64,000 nucleotides of DNA, from assembly GCF_000384815.1 (NCBI RefSeq), contig NZ_ARQF01000021.1:558001-622000 (forward strand), given 5' to 3'. Position numbers and translations under genes: made by a program. This DNA is from Halodesulfovibrio aestuarii DSM 17919 = ATCC 29578. GTDB taxonomy: Bacteria > Desulfobacterota > Desulfovibrionia > Desulfovibrionales > Desulfovibrionaceae. Below are positions 10,897 to 32,145 of the stretch, one piece after another; within the stretch, counting starts at the first letter, position 1, and every line of letters begins with the position of its first letter. The notes under the pieces are model-generated. The model was not told the origin of the DNA. It saw only the letters and a list, made by a program, of their open reading frames with translations, and did no database searches.

Positions 10897-10901
10897 AAAT
10901 T

Positions 10902-11266
10902 ATGGAGTCAGGACTATAAGCCGGGTTTTGTCTCCCTCTTGCGAGGGCGGTTATCATTCGTCTAGGATTATGATTACTCATAACCTCAAGCAACCTACCC
11001 GAAAACAACGACCGGGCCGGTCGTAACTGTTTTCCTATTTGGTCTTGCTCTGAACGGGGTTTACCTAGCCTACCATGTCACCATGGTACCTGGTGAGCTC
11101 TTACCTCACCGTTTCAACCTTACCGGCAGTAAACTGCTTAGGCGGTTTGCTTTCTGTGGCACTCTCCGAGGATCACTCCTCCTGGGTGTTACCCAGCGCT
11201 CTGCCCTTTAGAGCCCGGACTTTCCTCCCCGCACAAACGTGCGCGACGATAACCTGTCCAACTCCA
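10902..11266 (-). ncRNA. rnpB: RNase P RNA, bacterial class A
   Basis: The RNA part of RNase P, which removes tRNA 5' leaders. Read on the minus strand, the 5' region contains GAGGAAAGTCCGGGCTC, the hallmark CR-I block near the 5' end. The 3' region contains AAACCCGGCTTATAG, the matching 3' block before the closing helix. The first bases GGAGTTGGACAGG and the 3' GACTCC can pair as P1. The ends are set by this pairing and the following terminator and are good to a few bases. Only about 10 bases separate the upstream protein stop from the RNA 5' end. The promoter must therefore lie at or inside the 3' end of that gene (CATATT at the stop is a possible -10), or the RNA is cut from a longer transcript. 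Confidence 0.95.
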
Positions 11267-24939: not shown

Positions 24940-25191
24940 TTAAAAAGCGCCAGGCGTGCACTCATTAATTCCTGCCATTTGTCTGAGCAATCGCAGTGTC
25001 TCCTGTGCTTCATCAAAGTCCAGTTTCCGAAGTGCGAATCCTGCGTGAACAATCACGAAGTCGCCAATTTCGGCAGGACTTTCTAAAAGCATAGTCGAAA
25101 CATCAATATATGTTTCACTTTGTCCCACACGACATTTTGCCACGGTATCAGACTGAATTTCTACAACTTCAGCAGGAATTGCAAGGCACAT
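24940..25191 (-). CDS. hypC: Hydrogenase assembly chaperone HypC/HupF
   Basis: An 83-aa chaperone that binds HypD and the hydrogenase large-subunit precursor and helps deliver the Fe(CN)2CO unit. It begins MCLAIPAEVVEI; the second-position Cys is essential in the family. I chose the ATG at 25191 for that reason, with AGGAG upstream. The core GDFVIVHAGFALRKLDFDEAQETL is typical. It is the last gene of the cluster. The other Hyp genes (A, B, D, E, F) are not in this window and must be elsewhere. Confidence 0.95.
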   Translation of the reverse strand: MCLAIPAEVVEIQSDTVAKCRVGQSETYIDVSTMLLESPAEIGDFVIVHAGFALRKLDFDEAQETLRLLRQMAGINECTPGAF

Positions 25192-25258
25192 AAGCACTCC
25201 TAGGAACAGCGTAAGGCTGATAATTCATCAAAATATACGTTGAAAAGATTCCGGTTGG

Positions 25259-25747
25259 CTATTTTTTGAAAAATTTGCCGCCGGATTCGGTAATTTCCTG
25301 GAGTACAATGTCACACATTGAATCGAGTTTGCAAGCTACTTCTGATGAGAGATTTAGATTCATTGTTTGATAGTCGCTAGGCTCCATCCCGATTACAACA
25401 GTATCAGGACGGTTTCCTACCAGTTCACAGAAAATAAGGGTGTCGACTAAATCAGTTTGATGCATGGAGTTGTTAAAACCAAGGCTTTTGCGCAGATCTT
25501 CGCCAACTAGACGGTATATTGAACCGGCTTCATCGCCGCATAGCACGGCATCAACAACAATTAATTTGTCGTATTGAACGATGTGGTCCATCAGCTTCAT
25601 GCCAAGTGTGCCACCGTCAAATAAGGTTACGTTATCTGAAAAATTATATGAAGAGGACAGCTGTTCAACAGCTCGAACTCCAAGGCCTTCATCAGTATAC
25701 AGAGTATTTCCCACGCCCAGAACGAGAATTTCAGGAGAATTATTCAT
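25259..25747 (-). CDS. hynD: Hydrogenase maturation protease for the [NiFe] enzyme
   Basis: An M52 (HybD/HupD-like) nickel-dependent endopeptidase that removes the C-terminal peptide of the large subunit after nickel insertion. It begins MNNSPEILVLGVGN; TDEGLGVRA carries the metal-binding Glu, VVDAVLCGDEAG the Asp, and MHQTDLVD the His. From the ATG at 25747 it is 162 aa; a start 36 bases earlier is open but adds a non-family extension. It lies 257 bases after hynA, so HynA is the probable substrate. The second protease of this family (28950-29423) lies after hysA. Confidence 0.92.
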   Translation of the reverse strand: MNNSPEILVLGVGNTLYTDEGLGVRAVEQLSSSYNFSDNVTLFDGGTLGMKLMDHIVQYDKLIVVDAVLCGDEAGSIYRLVGEDLRKSLGFNNSMHQTDLVDTLIFCELVGNRPDTVVIGMEPSDYQTMNLNLSSEVACKLDSMCDIVLQEITESGGKFFKK

Positions 25748-25801
25748 AATATCTTTTGTTGCCTCACTGGCTAATGCGGCCATCTGTGTATAGTTGGGGC
25801 G

Positions 25802-25815
25802 GTTCTTCGAAGAAC
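25802..25815. repeat. Perfect palindrome GTTCTTCGAAGAAC
   Basis: A 14-bp perfect palindrome in the hynA-hynD gap, 55 bases before the hynD start, with a second hairpin ACCTC-GTAA-GAGGT at 25830-25843. They may be operator or mRNA-processing elements. There is no direct evidence. Confidence 0.35.
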
Positions 25816-25953
25816 GACGTGTTGCCTGAACCTCGTAAGAGGTATGCCCTCCAACCTGCGATTAGAAGTAAAATTTTGTGAAGGGTATGATTGGTTATAA
25901 TCTAAGGATTACAAGATGGTGGATAAGTTTTAAAAAAAACTTTGTAGTATGTT

Positions 25954-25987
25954 TGCTGGGGGAAATCTAGTAAGATTTCCCCCAGCA
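25954..25987 (-). terminator. Strong hairpin after hynA (processing or partial terminator)
   Basis: A perfect 15-bp stem with a 4-base loop lies 17 bases past the hynA stop. No T-run follows at once on the minus strand; an eight-T run comes about 15 bases further on. It may stabilise the hynBA messenger and lower hynD expression, rather than stop transcription fully. Confidence 0.6.
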
Positions 25988-26004
25988 TTTAGAGGCGATT
26001 ATCT

Positions 26005-27693
26005 TTATCTAATTTTGAACTTATGTACTTTGTTTGTATTTCCATCGATCACGTGTACGCCACAGGCGATACATGGGTCGAAGGAGTGCACAGTTCTGAG
26101 GATTTCAACAGGGCGTTCTGCATCTGCCACAGGAGTACCGACAAGTGCTTCTTCTACTGGTGACAGCAGGTCGTTTGCACAGCGAGGTCCAAGGTTCCAT
26201 GTGGAAGGCACAACAAGCTGGAAGTTATCAATCTTTTTTTCTTTAACTTTAAGCCAGTGAGAGAGCCCACCGCGTGGTGCGTTAACAAAACCAACGCCTT
26301 CGCCTTTTTCAACCATATCGACATCTTCGATAATTTGGTTTTTACCTGCAGCGAGGTTGGCTTCAAGCTGATCCAGCATGTCCACACAGTGTTCAGCTGC
26401 AACGGCTGTTTCAATACCACGAGCGGCGATACGACCAAGGGTTGAGTAGAGATTTTCTACTTTAATGCCAAGGGTATTAAGAACGTGATCTACAAGCGGT
26501 TTAATCTTTGGATGACCTTTTGCGTAGGCAACGAGTACCTGTGCAAGAGGGCCGGTTTCCATAGCTTTATCTTCATAGCGAGGAGCTTTCATCCATGAGT
26601 AGCGATCTTCACCGAACATTTCAGTGTACTTAGGATCAGTTTCGCCTTTGTATGGATGTAATGCTTTATCGCCTTCGTACCAGCTGTAGCGTACGTGTTC
26701 TGCAATTTTATTTGGATCAAACTTCTGTACGTTGCCGAAGTCGCGATTCATCACTATGCCGGCTGGGAAGTAACGGGAATCAAGTTCCTGACCTTTTGTC
26801 GGGAATTCGCCGAAGGTAAGGAAGTTGGTACAGCCACCGTATTGCGTCCAGTCTTTATACTGGCCTGCGATTGCAAGAAGGTCAGGAATGTAGACTTGGT
26901 CAATGAAGTTTTTGGTCTGCATGAGCAGATCGCGGAACTGCTTGAGCTTTTCTTTTTCCAAAGATTTGTAGCAGGTAACGCCGCCAACTTGCATGAACTG
27001 AGGATGCGGGTTTTTACCACCGAAAATAGCCATAGCACGGGCAGGAAGCAGTTGTATTTTGAGTGCTTCAAGGTAGTGTGCTGTACCTATAAGGTTAAGC
27101 TCTGGGCTCAGGTAGTAACCTTCGTGACCGTTTAAGAAGTAAGCATTAGTGAAAGGTCCAAGCTGGCCGCTGTCTACAAACTTCTTAAGAGTTGCCTGAA
27201 CCGCTTTAAGGTCTTCGACTTTGGTTTGGCGTGGAGAGATTGAGTTGGCGATGGAAGCAGCTTTCTTAGGGTCTGCTTTCAGGGCACCTGCTACATCAAT
27301 CCAGTCCAATCCGCAGAGATGATAGAAATGCACGAGATGGTCATGCATATACTGGCTACCCATAACAAGGTTACGGATAAGGGTAGCGTTTTCCGGAATG
27401 GTTACATTACAGGCATCTTCTGCTGCGCGGGTGGAAGCGAGGCCGTGTACGTAGGTACATACGCCGCATGAGCGCTGGGTAAAGTGCTGTGCATCTTCCG
27501 GTTTGCGACCTTTAAGGATTATTTCAAGCCCACGAAATAGAGTAGAAGAACTCCATGCGTTGGCAATTTTACCATCTTTTAATTCTACCTCGATACGAAG
27601 GTGACCTTCGATACGCGAGACAGGATCTACAACAACTCTGCCGCTCTTGTTGCCCTGAGGGGTAACAGGGAATCCAGAGGAATTGCTTTTCAT
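26005..27693 (-). CDS. hynA: Periplasmic [NiFe] hydrogenase large subunit
   Basis: The catalytic subunit of the periplasmic uptake [NiFe] hydrogenase (562 aa). Nickel ligands are Cys76 and Cys79 (RSCGVC) and Cys541 and Cys544 (DPCIACGVH). The precursor ends with 15 residues after His547, the peptide removed by the maturation protease. It has no signal peptide and is exported through Tat together with HynB. It starts 38 bases after hynB. All four ligands are cysteine here, unlike the neighbouring HysA. Electrons pass to periplasmic c-type cytochromes in Desulfovibrio (family knowledge). Confidence 0.97.
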   Translation of the reverse strand: MKSNSSGFPVTPQGNKSGRVVVDPVSRIEGHLRIEVELKDGKIANAWSSSTLFRGLEIILKGRKPEDAQHFTQRSCGVCTYVHGLASTRAAEDACNVTIPENATLIRNLVMGSQYMHDHLVHFYHLCGLDWIDVAGALKADPKKAASIANSISPRQTKVEDLKAVQATLKKFVDSGQLGPFTNAYFLNGHEGYYLSPELNLIGTAHYLEALKIQLLPARAMAIFGGKNPHPQFMQVGGVTCYKSLEKEKLKQFRDLLMQTKNFIDQVYIPDLLAIAGQYKDWTQYGGCTNFLTFGEFPTKGQELDSRYFPAGIVMNRDFGNVQKFDPNKIAEHVRYSWYEGDKALHPYKGETDPKYTEMFGEDRYSWMKAPRYEDKAMETGPLAQVLVAYAKGHPKIKPLVDHVLNTLGIKVENLYSTLGRIAARGIETAVAAEHCVDMLDQLEANLAAGKNQIIEDVDMVEKGEGVGFVNAPRGGLSHWLKVKEKKIDNFQLVVPSTWNLGPRCANDLLSPVEEALVGTPVADAERPVEILRTVHSFDPCIACGVHVIDGNTNKVHKFKIR

Positions 27694-27731
27694 GTATCTT
27701 GCTCCTTGGGATAAGCTATCGGTTCAAGCTG

Positions 27732-28685
27732 CTAGTTTTCATAGAACGGGCTCATTTCGTCCCAGAAGTTAGGTTCAGAGCAGCCGATACAAGGGTGACC
27801 TGCATCAACAGGCCAGTTTACCTGATTGAATTTGATGGTAGGGCAGTTGTTATAGGTATCTGGACCCTTACATCCTAATTCATACAGGCACCATCCCTTG
27901 CGAGCTTCCTCAGAATTAAAGGAAGGAGCAAACTCACCAGCTTCAAAGTGTGGTAAGCGTGGGCACTGGTCATGAACGCTTGTTCCAAAGAACGGAACAG
28001 GTCTTTGCAAATCATCAAGTTCTGGGGCTTTGTGCTTTGTGAGATAATATAAAATCGTACCCACAAAGTTATACGGGTTAGGAGGGCAACCCGGAACATT
28101 GATGCCTACGATGTTTTTATCTTTAAGGATTTCATTAACACCCTTTGCACCAGTTGGGTTAGGAGCAGCAGCCTGAACGCCACCAAAGCAGGCACAGGTG
28201 CCATGGTTGATAAGAGCTGTAGCTTTAGGAGCAATGTTGTTGACAATGTCCAGCATGGTATGTCCGGCTACTTTACCGTATATACCGCCGTCTTTTGTCG
28301 GGACACCACCTTCAATAGCAAGGATAAAGCCATTAGGATTTTCCACAGCCTGCTCAAGTGCTTTTTCAGCAGCATCGCCTGCAGCGGTCATGATAGTCTC
28401 ATCATAATCCAATGAAATGGTATCGAAAAGGATCTCTTGAATGTACGGCTCATGTGCCCGAAGGAGAGCTTCGGTACAGCCGGTGCATTCTGCACAATGC
28501 AAATACACAACAGAAGGGCGGAGTTTAGAGGTGATAGCTTCGGCAATTTTTGCTCCGAACGCAGGAGCCATTCCAAGGGACACAGCAGCCGCAGTACAGT
28601 ACTTCATGAACTGACGGCGGGAGACCCCTTTCTTTTCTAGACGTTCAACGACATCGTCTTTGCCGAGACCTACAGAAATTTTCAT
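27732..28685 (-). CDS. hynB: Periplasmic [NiFe] hydrogenase small subunit
   Basis: The iron-sulfur subunit (317 aa) that carries electrons from the active site. The Tat signal has SRRQFMKYC at 22-30 and a hydrophobic stretch after it. The proximal cluster ligands are in CAECTGC and later GTCACFGG and GCPPNPYN. The distal and medial cluster segment has [13 protein letters not shown] and [13 protein letters not shown]. The Pro in NWP is typical of the [3Fe-4S] medial cluster of standard enzymes. It is transcribed with hynA; the 264-bp gap upstream holds the hysD terminator and should hold its promoter. Confidence 0.97.
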
Positions 28686-28949: not shown

Positions 28950-29423
28950 TTAGCTCATTTCTGCAATAATCTCATTAATGCGTTTACGTGTATGAGCTAC
29001 GAACTTGTCAAATTTAGGCTTGCAAACATCGGAGAGACCGATGTTCCAAGTTGTAATGTCATAGGGCTGCATTCCAATAATTTCCATTTTAGGACGCTTA
29101 CCACAACGCATTTCACACATGCGTAATGAATCAAGCATGTCAATATCATGAATCGAAACACGCTGTTTTTTGTTAGAGCGGATATCGTCTTCAGTCAGTT
29201 CATAAATGGTACCCGGTTCATGTTCCGCGTGGATAACATCAAGAACAAGCAGTCTGTCGTAGCCTTGGAAAAGGGCGTAAATATCTTGGGTAAAGGTTCC
29301 TGCTTCCATCACGGTAACATTTTCCGGCCATTCTTCTTTCCAAAGAACTTCAGCAGCATGAACGCCGACACCGTCATCAGTTAAAAGCGTATTGCCAATA
29401 CCTAGTACTAAAAGTTTTTCCAT
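28950..29423 (-). CDS. hysD: Hydrogenase maturation protease for the [NiFeSe] enzyme
   Basis: An M52 endopeptidase of 157 aa from the ATG at 29423 (AAGGAC upstream). It begins MEKLLVLGIGNTLLTDDGVG. Compared with HynD, the Glu of the TDEG metal site is replaced by Asp (TDDG). LVLDVIHAEHEPG and SIHDIDMLD hold the other probable ligands. It lies 180 bases after the true end of hysA, so it most likely trims the selenocysteine-containing HysA. A terminator separates it from hysA and another separates it from hynB, so it may have its own promoter or rely on read-through. Confidence 0.92.
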   Translation of the reverse strand: MEKLLVLGIGNTLLTDDGVGVHAAEVLWKEEWPENVTVMEAGTFTQDIYALFQGYDRLLVLDVIHAEHEPGTIYELTEDDIRSNKKQRVSIHDIDMLDSLRMCEMRCGKRPKMEIIGMQPYDITTWNIGLSDVCKPKFDKFVAHTRKRINEIIAEMS

Positions 29424-29548
29424 GATCCGTCCTTTAAGCAGCAATGTGAAAACAGAAAAAATGAATTACCTATCAATAAAATAAACAGTGAGACCTGAGC
29501 AAGGCTTTTGTCTCAGTTGTTTTCTCGACCAGAGAAAAGAGTTTGAAG

Positions 29549-29582
29549 AAAAAAAGAGGAACCAGACGGTTCCTCTTTTATT
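29549..29582 (-). terminator. Terminator after hysA
   Basis: Arms AAGAGGAACC and GGTTCCTCTT with a 4-base loop, T-runs on both sides. It lies 22 bases after the TAA at 29604-29606, not near the in-frame TGA. That supports the longer reading of hysA. Confidence 0.9.
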
Positions 29583-29603: not shown

Positions 29604-31148
29604 TTATTCAAACTCAACTACGGAAACTTTACCGGTCTCTGCGTTCATCACGTGAACGGCACAGCCCAGTCATGGGTCAAAGGCGCGAATGAGACGCGCC
29701 ACGTTTACTGGATTATCAATGTCCGGAACTGGGATGCCGATGAGAGCTTCTTCAACAGGACCGCGTACACCCTTGTCATCGCGAGGGTTACAGTTCCAGA
29801 GAGTTGCAGAAACAATCTGGTAGTTGTTGATTTTGCTGTCTTTAACATCAAGGTAGTGGAGCAGAGCGCCGCGTGGTGCTTCTGTGAAACCAGTACCTTC
29901 AGCAGATTCAGGAATTTCGTAAGCAGTGAAGGTCTCTTCGTCTGGCTTAACTTCTTTGAGCCATGCGTCAATGAAGTCAAGAATGTACCAAGATTCTTCA
30001 GCACGTGCTACGTGACGACCCATAAGGGAGAATGCTGCGTCTTCACCGAGGTCGCGGAAGCGTTTTGCATCCATACCGAATTTTTCTTTCAGCATTTTCT
30101 GACCGACTGGTGAAAGTGGAGGGTTCTCAACCCACATACGAGCGAGAGGACCTACTTCACAAGCGACGCCATTGTAGCGAGGGGCCTTAACAAAACTGTA
30201 TGCGCCTTCTTTCTCAGGAGCAGGAATAGTTTTGCCTTCAGAGTAGTGAAGACCTGTAGTGGAATCTTCAAACCATGAGTATTTAACATCTTCATGGATT
30301 TTGGAAGGATCAAACTTATGATCTTTACCATCAAAGTATACGCCGGATTTCATCATGAACTTGGAGTAGGCATTATCAAGCGGGAAAACACCGTATGCGA
30401 TACATGCTTTATGTCCCTGTCCAACTTTGAACATATCAGGGTATACAGAACCAACAGTATAAACAGTCGGAAGGTATTTGTTATTAACAAAGTCGCGAAC
30501 TTTCTTGAAGCGCACTGCGTATTCAAGGATTCGATCTTTGGTAGGCATTTCAGTTGTGCCACCAGCTACGAGGCCTTGTACGTGAGGCATTTTACCGCCC
30601 CAGATAGCAACCATTTCGTGACAGACAGCACGTACATCGAGAGCTTCAATGTACTGATCAACTGCCGCTGCGTTAACAGCTTTGAGATCTTTGCTGCGAT
30701 CTTCAAGAAGGTCAGACTTTTGGTAACGAGGTACAAACGGTGCGCTATCAGGACCCTGAACGAAGTCCTGTGCTGCTAAGTGGTAGAAATGCAGAAGGTG
30801 AGACTGCAGGTAGTTAGCACCGAGTATGAGGTTACGGGTAATGCGGGCATTGTTGGTTACTTTAACGCCAAATGCTGCGTCCTGAGCCATAATAGAAGCA
30901 GTTGCGTGCGCTGTTGGGCATACGCCACAGATGCGCTGAACGATCTGGGAAGAGTCGCGAGGGTCGCGACCACGAAGGATCTGCTCAAACCCGCGGTACA
31001 TACCGCCGGAAAGCTTTGCGTCCACAACTTTGCCGTTTTCAACGGTAACATCAGCTTTTAAATGGCCTTCGATACGGGTTACCGGATCGATTGCGATATG
31101 AGCTGTTTTACCGCTGGCTGCTGCTCCATTTCTTTTGCAACCAGACAT
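29604..31148 (-). CDS. hysA: [NiFeSe] hydrogenase large subunit, selenocysteine-containing
   Basis: The catalytic subunit of the periplasmic [NiFeSe] hydrogenase, 514 aa when the TGA at 29670-29672 is read as selenocysteine (residue 493). The frame then continues LGCAVH plus a 15-residue tail to TAA at 29604. Nickel ligands are Cys74 and Cys77 (RICGVC), Sec493 and Cys496. Cleavage is expected after His499. The N-terminus MSGCKRNG has Cys at position 4 without a signal peptide; in D. vulgaris this enzyme is known to be lipidated at such an N-terminal Cys. It starts 40 bases after hysB. A standard gene caller would cut it at 492 aa. Confidence 0.96.
29642..29658 (-). promoter_or_regulatory. Candidate bacterial SECIS hairpin in hysA
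   Basis: On the minus strand, C-GTTCA-CGTGA-TGAAC-G forms a 6-bp stem with a 5-base loop containing G and T. It starts 11 nt after the TGA codon, and the loop lies about 17 nt downstream, within the usual range for SelB recognition. It must stay translatable, and it is (AVHVMNA). Confidence 0.7.
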
Positions 31149-31188: not shown

Positions 31189-32145
31189 TTACGCAGGCTC
31201 GTAGAACGGGGACTTACCGTCAGGGAAGTCTGGCTCAACGCAACCGATGCATACAGCATTCTGTACACACCAGTTCATACCGTTGTTCCATTTACGTTTG
31301 TAACAATCAGACATGGTGTCTGGACCTTTACAACCGAGTTCCATGCGACAACCTCTAACATCAGTAAACTTAGTTGCCAGAAGGTCATTATCAAAGTCTT
31401 CAAGGTATGGGCAGTTGTCGTGAATGTTTTCGCCGTAGAATGGAGTAGGTCGTCCATCATCGTCGAGAATTTCAACAACTTCACCAAGACCATCTGCAAG
31501 ACCATGCTTTTTGATAGCATCAAGAGCAACAGTTACTGTACCAACGATCCAGTCAGGATGCGGAGGACAACCAGGAATGTTAACAACAGGAGTAGCAATT
31601 TCTTCGGATTCGAAGAAATCACGCACACCTTTTGCACCGGTTTGGCTGCCTGCTGCTGCAGGGATACCGCCGTATGCAGAACAGGTACCTATTGCGAGCA
31701 CTGCTGCTGCCTTAGGACCGAGTTCTTTCATTGCTTCGACCATGGTAATTTCTTGGTGATCGGCTTCGCCGACTACACAGTATTTACCCTCGGCTTCAGT
31801 AGGAATGCTTCCTTCGACAACAAGGAAGAATTTACCGTCATACTTGTCTGCAATTTTGAACATATGCTCCATTGCAGGTTCGCCTTCCCATGCCATCACT
31901 GTTGGATGGAATTCAAGACTGATAACTTTAAGCAGAACATCTTTAATGTGTGGGTTAACAGAGTTCAGGAGGGACACGGAACATCCCGTACATCCTGCAC
32001 CTTGTAACCATAAAACTGGAGGGCGTTCGCCGTTAAGTGAACCGGAAATCGCTTCACATACAGCTGGGTTGAACATTTGGGAAACCCCAAGTCCAGCCAC
32101 AGTCCCTGTACACAGTTTAACAAAATCACGCCTGTTGAGACTCAT
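31189..32145 (-). CDS. hysB: [NiFeSe] hydrogenase small subunit
   Basis: A 318-aa Fe-S subunit with a Tat signal (NRRDFVKLCTG at 4-14). I chose the ATG at 32145 with AGGAGG upstream; the ORF start 69 bases earlier lies ahead of the ribosome site. Cluster ligands are in GCTGCS, GTCSAYGG, GCPPHPDW, GCKGPDTMSDCY and CVQNAVCIGC. Where HynB has NWP, HysB has NWC, so the medial cluster has a fourth Cys and should be [4Fe-4S], as known for [NiFeSe] enzymes. It leads the hysBA operon. Confidence 0.97.
   Translation of the reverse strand: MSLNRRDFVKLCTGTVAGLGVSQMFNPAVCEAISGSLNGERPPVLWLQGAGCTGCSVSLLNSVNPHIKDVLLKVISLEFHPTVMAWEGEPAMEHMFKIADKYDGKFFLVVEGSIPTEAEGKYCVVGEADHQEITMVEAMKELGPKAAAVLAIGTCSAYGGIPAAAGSQTGAKGVRDFFESEEIATPVVNIPGCPPHPDWIVGTVTVALDAIKKHGLADGLGEVVEILDDDGRPTPFYGENIHDNCPYLEDFDNDLLATKFTDVRGCRMELGCKGPDTMSDCYKRKWNNGMNWCVQNAVCIGCVEPDFPDGKSPFYEPA

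Follow-up and report, generated by a model that had tools for sequence, protein, structure and literature searches.

A conserved hairpin upstream of the selenocysteine codon in the [NiFeSe] hydrogenase gene hysA of Halodesulfovibrio aestuarii and its possible part in UGA decoding

The DNA analysed here, called the window throughout, was a stretch of 64,000 nucleotides from Halodesulfovibrio aestuarii DSM 17919, and the feature under study was hysA, the gene for the large subunit of a [NiFeSe] hydrogenase. Its frame opened with ATG at 31148, contained a single in-frame TGA at 29672-29670, and reached its next stop at TAA 29606-29604 (Table 1). If the TGA stops translation, the product has 492 aa; read-through extends it to 514 aa, with the codons 3' of the TGA encoding LGCAVH and then a 15-residue tail. 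An earlier note, made from the letters alone, had placed the gene and both codons at these positions and had warned that a frame ended at the TGA would lose 22 residues; translation returned every coordinate exactly, and the same loss. The small subunit gene preceded hysA, and a NiFeSe maturation protease gene came after it. The former, hysB, scored 598.5 bits against NCBIfam NF045520 (cut-off 470) and 20.1 bits against TIGR01409 (cut-off 16.7), and the hysD-like protease scored 258.7 bits against NF045519 (cut-off 190).

Table 1. Features of the hys locus in window coordinates.
Feature	Position	Strand	Basis
hysB, [NiFeSe] hydrogenase small subunit with Tat signal	31189..32145	(-)	NCBIfam NF045520, TIGR01409
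hysA, [NiFeSe] hydrogenase large subunit, 514 aa with Sec493	29604..31148	(-)	ORF, PDB alignment, NCBIfam
Upstream hairpin, 6-bp stem (29700-29695 with 29687-29682), 7-nt loop	29682..29700	(-)	Fold and conservation
In-frame TGA, selenocysteine 493 (DP-U-LGC)	29670..29672	(-)	Translation, PDB alignment, conservation
Bacterial SECIS	29631..29670	(-)	Fold; pair count; covariation
SECIS apical stem (loop 29652-29648, G at second position)	29657-29653 with 29647-29643	(-)	Lower stem weaker
hysA C-terminal tail, 15 residues after His499, and TAA stop	29604..29651	(-)	Translation, 2wpn_B end
Terminator-like stem-loop 3' of hysA	29552..29579	(-)	12-bp stem with T run; site count not above shuffles
hysD-like NiFeSe hydrogenase maturation protease	28950..29444	(-)	NF045519; ATG within first codons

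The read-through product aligned with PDB chains at up to 862 bits (phmmer), over query residues 10 to 513, and the best matches were named periplasmic [NiFeSe] hydrogenase, selenocysteine-containing. The U of DP-U-LGCAVH was aligned to the X of 5jsh and 2wpn, and chain 2wpn_B, aligned to query residues 1-499, ended there. In the solved large subunits (5jsu, 5jsh, and 2wpn), which we take to be HysA of D. vulgaris Hildenborough, selenocysteine (Sec) stood at the same place, as X or C in PDB letters; 5jsu and 5jsh carried a C-terminal tail of the same kind, and no notable difference in the protein was seen between these subunits and HysA. The alignment to HysA that the earlier note had proposed as a check thus gave the expected result, and its reading of DP-Sec-LGCAVH plus a 15-residue tail held on translation. 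A chance origin of the tail was excluded, because it aligned residue by residue with solved Sec-containing HysA chains. With C substituted for U, HysA also passed the NCBIfam model NF045518, at 909.6 bits against a cut-off of 780. We conclude that hysA almost certainly encodes the Sec-containing large subunit of a periplasmic [NiFeSe] hydrogenase.

A terminator had also been claimed to lie after the TAA. A 12-bp stem with a T run was indeed found there; however, terminator-like sites were no more frequent than in shuffled sequence (3, compared with a shuffle mean of 3.2). As the stem (29579-29552) is downstream of the TGA as well as of the TAA, it does not separate the two stops.

The same genome contained selA (629 bits, cut-off 267.9), selB (386 bits, cut-off 242.25), selD (338.5 bits, cut-off 125), and a tRNA-Sec gene, selC (84.6 bits, gathering score 47), for which ARAGORN gave the anticodon TCA. 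A second tRNA-Sec candidate, at 47.6 bits just over the gathering score, proved to be a tRNA-Ser. The search for these four genes had been suggested as a check, and since all are present, the finding that would have told against Sec, a genome lacking selABC or selD, does not apply. Decoding of the UGA as anything other than Sec was rejected given selA, selB, selC, selD, and a SECIS element, along with Sec in the solved relatives; the Sec assignment is supported by these, by the HysA model and PDB alignment, and by the conserved TGA described below. The selD gene itself (L018, C21:309978-310904) had one in-frame TGA and is likely a selenoprotein gene, and each of three fdhA matches over cut-off in this genome likewise had an in-frame TGA.

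The TGA was conserved among HysA relatives. A family search found it within DPULGCAVH at 30 of 30 loci. In a scan of named genomes (best 80 of 283 relatives), it stood at the Sec site in 46 of 79 loci; of the other 33, 3 ended before the site, 8 had Cys (TGC or TGT) and were at most 44% identical to HysA, and 22, without a motif match inside the matched region, were distant hydrogenases of 29-33% identity. Motif matches in L117 and L127 fell outside the matched gene and were excluded from the TGA counts. Among these best 80 of 283 relatives, the closest named loci were from Halodesulfovibrio (96% and 94% identical), and the named Nitratidesulfovibrio and Desulfovibrio HysA orthologues were 71-72% identical. 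A second set, consisting of an order-level search plus one phylum locus, had the TGA in 58 of 58 loci, whose rows had been preselected as TGA-flagged; three flag-free rows of its listing (G003, G324, and G441) stopped short of the Sec site. HysA-type loci that reached the site, all with TGA, therefore numbered 76 in the family and named-genome sets and 58 in the second set, counts that are not independent because near-identical loci were shared between sets. Of the loci that extend to the Sec site and are about 50% identical or more, none was seen to have Cys.

These counts bear on the idea that the TGA arose through an error of sequencing, or that a Cys codon (TGC or TGT) has recently mutated to a stop; in its favour, TGA and TGC differ by a single base. 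The same TGA with a SECIS recurs in the 76 and 58 HysA-type loci, and the genome has selA, selB, selC, and selD; because the TGA is kept down to about 50% protein identity, a TGC-to-TGA sequencing error is very unlikely. Conservation ruled out a pseudogene in the same way, and we assign the error or mutation explanation as a whole a negligible probability.

Several loci varied around this common form. In L024, from the same genus (G096), the conserved Trp of ATLWNC in hysA was replaced by a further in-frame TGA, in addition to the Sec codon; this is either a nonsense change or an assembly error. The tail after AVH in the Sec HysA of L046 and L047 was only four residues long (VLHA) before the stop, and the near Cys homologues L096, L099, L100, and L102 ended directly at AVH, without a tail. 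A HysA fragment (residues 375-512) with one TGA, at G026:C26:79997-80410, lay inside an open frame reported as 24146 aa long, apparently an artefact.

Directly 3' of the UGA, the RNA formed a bacterial SECIS. The 58 nt around the TGA folded at -18 kcal/mol (z -1.82), and the apical part had a 5-bp stem, GUNCA/UGNAC, with a 5-nt loop and 17 nt between UGA and loop. The loop G at position 2 was present in 125 of 125 hysA genes, the 5-bp apical stem was complete in 124 of 125, and the minimum free energy (MFE) was at or below -7.5 kcal/mol in 51 of 51 sequences. The bSECIS model, as outlined in the accessible sections of PMC13188914, specifies a loop of 3-9 nt, an upper stem of 4-16 bp, a G in the first two loop positions, a UGA-to-loop distance of 16-37 nt, and an MFE at or below -7.5. 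The hysA element agreed with that model in stem, loop size, loop G, 17-nt spacing, and MFE; it differs from the model as described there in that a conserved hairpin is also found 5' of the UGA.

Conservation and covariation both supported the SECIS. After rows sharing a 48-base stretch were collapsed, 54 of 76 sequences were left, in which 86.2% of cells of a 15-pair structure were paired, vs 28.8-42.0% after the partner had been displaced by 1 to 3 columns. Double changes occurred in 31 cells, vs 15.8 in shuffles; pairs with double changes numbered 3 in the same 54 distinct sequences, which was not above shuffles. The lower stem was poorly kept, with three of its pairs unpaired in 27, 35, and 30 of the 54 sequences. 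In the middle pair of the apical stem, position 3 of a Val codon is matched with position 1 of the codon that comes four places after it; the pair occurred as G-C with His (33/76), C-G with Asp (37/76), or T-A with Asn (6/76); over 125 genes, the types were G-C in 81, C-G in 37, and T-A in 7, the G-C rows including one with Gln (L303). A quickly built tree of 120 distinct proteins, containing a few very long branches (L062, L213, and L314), placed at least 3 compensated changes of this pair: in the close relatives of the H. aestuarii gene, in a large group including Desulfobacteraceae loci, and in L043. Every such change altered both bases and one tail residue. The covariation is new in that it ties a silent Val base to a residue of the tail. 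With Asn, His, or Asp as that residue, in a tail that would be cut off, the tie offers a clean case of an amino-acid replacement accompanying an RNA structure.

The most unusual part of the locus, on which the earlier note had said nothing, is the hairpin 5' of the TGA. In the H. aestuarii gene it is GGCGCG-UCUCAUU-CGCGCC; it folded at -11.7 kcal/mol alone (z -2.71), ended 9 nt before the TGA, and also formed in a joint fold with the SECIS. Structure was scored against a synonymous null, in which codons were exchanged for synonyms taken from the gene itself. The scan window just 5' of the TGA had a mean z of -2.30, vs -1.94 for the SECIS window and -0.31 (sd 0.42) for all windows except SECIS, a signal found post hoc among 78 windows in 51 sequences (51 of the 54 rows, with L046, L047, and L048 left out). 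In a 442-window scan of every second hysA sequence (32 of 64), the 10-codon windows at offsets -12, -11, -10, -13, and -9 ranked 1-5, with mean z from -3.05 to -1.86 compared with a mean of -0.24 (sd 0.44) for all windows, making the upstream hairpin the strongest synonymous-structure signal in hysA in those 32 sequences. At -12, the value over 64 hysA sequences was -2.85. A hysA window about 379 codons before the TGA also gave such a signal (mean z -1.78, rank 6 of 442).

Different lineages paired in different registers, including GGCGCG/CGCGCC, GGGGCG/CGCUCC, GGGCGC/GCGCCU, and AAGGAUC/GAUCCUU, with the stem ending 7-9 nt before the UGA in the main registers, and at least 32 changes of register class were counted on the tree. 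A fixed-register model was therefore inadequate, and register-free tests were used. A rare-codon effect was rejected as the source of the signal, as lineages vary between registers built on CGN and registers built on AGG/AGA.

The signal was found again in a second set of 49 further distinct hysA sequences (mean z -2.38 at -10), which come from other genomes nearly all of the same order and are therefore not phylogenetically independent. At least 6 uninterrupted pairs occurred upstream in 59 of 83 distinct hysA stretches vs 12.3 expected (maximum of 100 synonymous nulls, 19) and at the same stretch in 0 of 36 genes for HynA, the Cys-type paralogue. Three other hysA windows gave stem counts of 17/95 vs 18.2, 4/103 vs 5.0, and 6/106 vs 1.5 expected, the last being the window at -20, which has a small excess as well. 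With a GC-matched null, the upstream mean z in hysA was -2.26 (91 of 93 sequences), with 54 of 91 at p <= 0.05, and that of 40 HynA genes was -0.13, with 2 at p <= 0.05; by the synonymous null, the 40 Cys-type HynA genes averaged 0.02 at -12. Upstream values of the five nearest Cys homologues (38-44% identical, nearness being defined by identity alone) were +1.4, -1.0, +0.3, +1.0, and +0.8, with peptides similar to that of HysA, such as VGRVVRSFDPC, and three more distant Cys homologues gave 0.0, +0.2, and +1.8. Matched stem halves folded better than swapped ones (-9.85 vs -7.13 kcal/mol) over 47 distinct hairpins, whose relatedness inflates the permutation value.

With sequences grouped at 75% protein identity, 14 of 22 lineages had a mean z below -1 and 2 were above 0 (Wilcoxon p 1.6e-5); at 90% identity, the corresponding numbers were 34 and 6 of 50 lineages, and at the coarser level of 68% identity, only 3 of 8 clusters were below -1 and none above 0. 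Eight of the 22 Sec HysA lineages had a missing or weak signal, so the hairpin is not essential for Sec insertion. A deep HysA clade of 8 rows was without upstream excess (mean z -0.11), the Sec HysA of L032, L043, L048, L213, and L314 had little or none, and the signal was weak in L045/L302 (-0.97) and L046/L047 (-0.64). The upstream hairpin is conserved beyond the expectation from codon use and peptide in most HysA lineages sampled, and these sequence comparisons make it quite likely to be a selected structure.

Other Sec genes differed among themselves in this respect. The downstream signal was clear and the upstream signal absent in 23 selD-Sec genes, where the Sec codon is near the gene start and the farthest upstream windows may extend before the start codon, and in 7 FrhA-type-Sec genes, one of which (L213) is a HysA-like gene also in the second hysA set. 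A universal 5' element of Sec genes was accordingly rejected. The 21 Cys FrhA-type genes were without a downstream signal and had a mild upstream value of -0.97 at -10; the motifs had fitted 23 of 30 selD loci and 28 of 30 FrhA-type loci (7 Sec and 21 Cys). The fdhA Sec genes (n = 53) had mean z values of about -0.8 to -1.1, reaching -1.06 at -14, those from across the phylum (n = 28) reached -1.00, and the Cys genes (n = 16, including one spurious motif match, L334) lay at about -0.4 to +0.2 at -14 to -11. In Sec-type fdhA (L169-L198 and L315-L383), a hairpin of 9 bp, GCCTGGTG...CACCAGGC, often stopped 7 nt short of the TGA; its pairing is broken in five Cys paralogues whose peptide is similar. 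Among genes at or near the peptide LGLV(Y/F)(I/V)EHQAR, all 9 pairs were present in 17 of 27 Sec vs 0 of 5 Cys genes (Fisher p 0.015, with relatedness not removed). Of the three fdhA genes in the H. aestuarii genome itself, L333 (z -1.9) and L353 (-3.0) had the structure upstream of the TGA and L186 (+1.8) lacked it. The fdhA trend is weaker than that of hysA and may serve as a lead, not as a result.

The SECIS is the site of action of SelB and Sec-tRNA; in the mature enzyme, Sec coordinates nickel, and maturation removes the C-terminal tail. In H. aestuarii, SelB carrying Sec-tRNA would bind the hairpin 3' of the UGA at 29672-29670 and insert Sec493 as nickel ligand; translation would then run to the TAA at 29604, and the neighbouring protease would be expected to cut the tail after His499. 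When the UGA occupies the A site, the upstream stem would come to lie immediately behind the E site, and by refolding there it could hold the ribosome. Alternatively, the hairpin could slow the next ribosome about a dozen codons earlier, by which the SECIS would gain time to refold. Either route would raise the Sec yield against termination at the UGA. An unrefolded SECIS behind the preceding ribosome has been raised as a possible cause of termination in the sections of PMC4513850 available to us, and a hairpin upstream of a frameshift site is described in those of PMC3639245 as attenuating -1 frameshifting to a degree that depends on its stability and distance. That the hysA hairpin acts in decoding of the UGA is plausible, and we put it forward tentatively; refolding behind the waiting ribosome or slowing of the next one is our favoured guess, with a role in mRNA stability as the alternative. 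With similar reserve, we suggest that in Desulfobacterota hysA, and weakly also in Sec-type fdhA, the Sec codon may stand between two selected hairpins, of which the new 5' one would tune UGA decoding.

Two other explanations of the hairpin were weighed against a part in decoding. One holds that hysA is ordinary, with a downstream SECIS only, and that codon preferences together with the conserved peptide (A/G-R-x-I/V-R-A/S) produce the upstream hairpin incidentally. The peptide itself does favour a short stem, as 5 or more pairs form in 54% of synonymous versions, and the lack of excess in the deep HysA clade, with the related peptides AGRLVRAF and AGRLIRAF, is also counted in its favour; however, synonymous and GC-matched nulls built from the genes' own codons still leave a mean z of -2.26 to -3.05, the nearest Cys homologues have peptides such as VGRVVRSF without any excess, and the pairing registers differ among lineages. 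We consider a by-product unlikely.

The other explanation accepts selection and assigns the RNA (or DNA) element to stability or regulation of the hysA mRNA instead of UGA decoding. Selenium-dependent regulation of hysAB occurs in D. vulgaris, which agrees with it, as does the distribution of the hairpin, present in hysA, weak in fdhA, and found in neither selD nor FrhA-type Sec genes. An element of that kind sits less easily with a stem that ends 7-9 nt from the UGA in the main registers, with a signal that averages zero in the Cys-type paralogue HynA and does not exceed the null in the nearest Cys homologues, or with the separation of the 53 fdhA Sec forms (-0.8 to -1.1) from the 16 Cys forms (-0.4 to +0.2). 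Stability or regulation is a serious possibility, if a somewhat doubtful one, and action in UGA decoding remains the reading that we prefer.

In work on E. coli fdhF, upstream sequence reportedly proved dispensable, and the D. baculatum gene is said to have been expressed heterologously together with its own selB and selC. According to the available part of PMC10362691, the SECIS elements of D. baculatum and E. coli are different, and one that works in E. coli could not be built into the gene for the related D. baculatum enzyme without changing the protein; attempts were toxic. Large subunits of [NiFeSe] hydrogenases have been reported as truncated in databases at the in-frame opal codon, with a SECIS directly after it (PMC4730141, as seen in part), and the Sec reading of hysA is therefore already known in kind; NCBI now has a dedicated HysA model (NF045518). 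The words "upstream" and "hairpin" do not occur in the main text of PMC4730141, and no description of a hairpin upstream of a bacterial Sec codon was found among the open-licence PMC papers listed, at most 20 per search. On comparative evidence, the upstream hairpin would thus be a new part of the locus.

The nearest known structures are the refolding hairpins at frameshift sites (PMC3639245 and PMC6321510, in the portions available), which, like hysA, have a short 5' hairpin paired with a downstream structure. Those hairpins modulate frameshifting (-1 or +1), mostly in eukaryotic systems, at sites from viruses or reporters; hysA has no known slippage. A stable hairpin a few nucleotides 5' of the recoding codon, conserved as a structure, was found in 14 of 22 HysA lineages; it is kept as a candidate and not classed among the recoding-modulating refolding hairpins. 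The Sec reading of hysA is what is expected for the [NiFeSe] family, and the importance of the upstream hairpin depends on a part in decoding. In the accessible sections of PMC13188914, the model of bacterial Sec insertion contains the downstream element alone. If the role proposed here is correct, a 5' hairpin would be a part of bacterial Sec insertion signals missing from the current bSECIS model. It would add a testable condition to the production of [NiFeSe] hydrogenases and give searches for selenoprotein genes a new feature.

Elsewhere in the window, Rfam models at gathering scores matched only a bacterial RNase P class A RNA (10900-11265, 315.9 bits) and two tRNAs. After the hys genes, on the same strand (24940-28685), lay a second hydrogenase pair, with its large subunit under the NCBIfam cut-offs and its small subunit over the TIGR00391 cut-off, together with a HupD-type protease and HypC.
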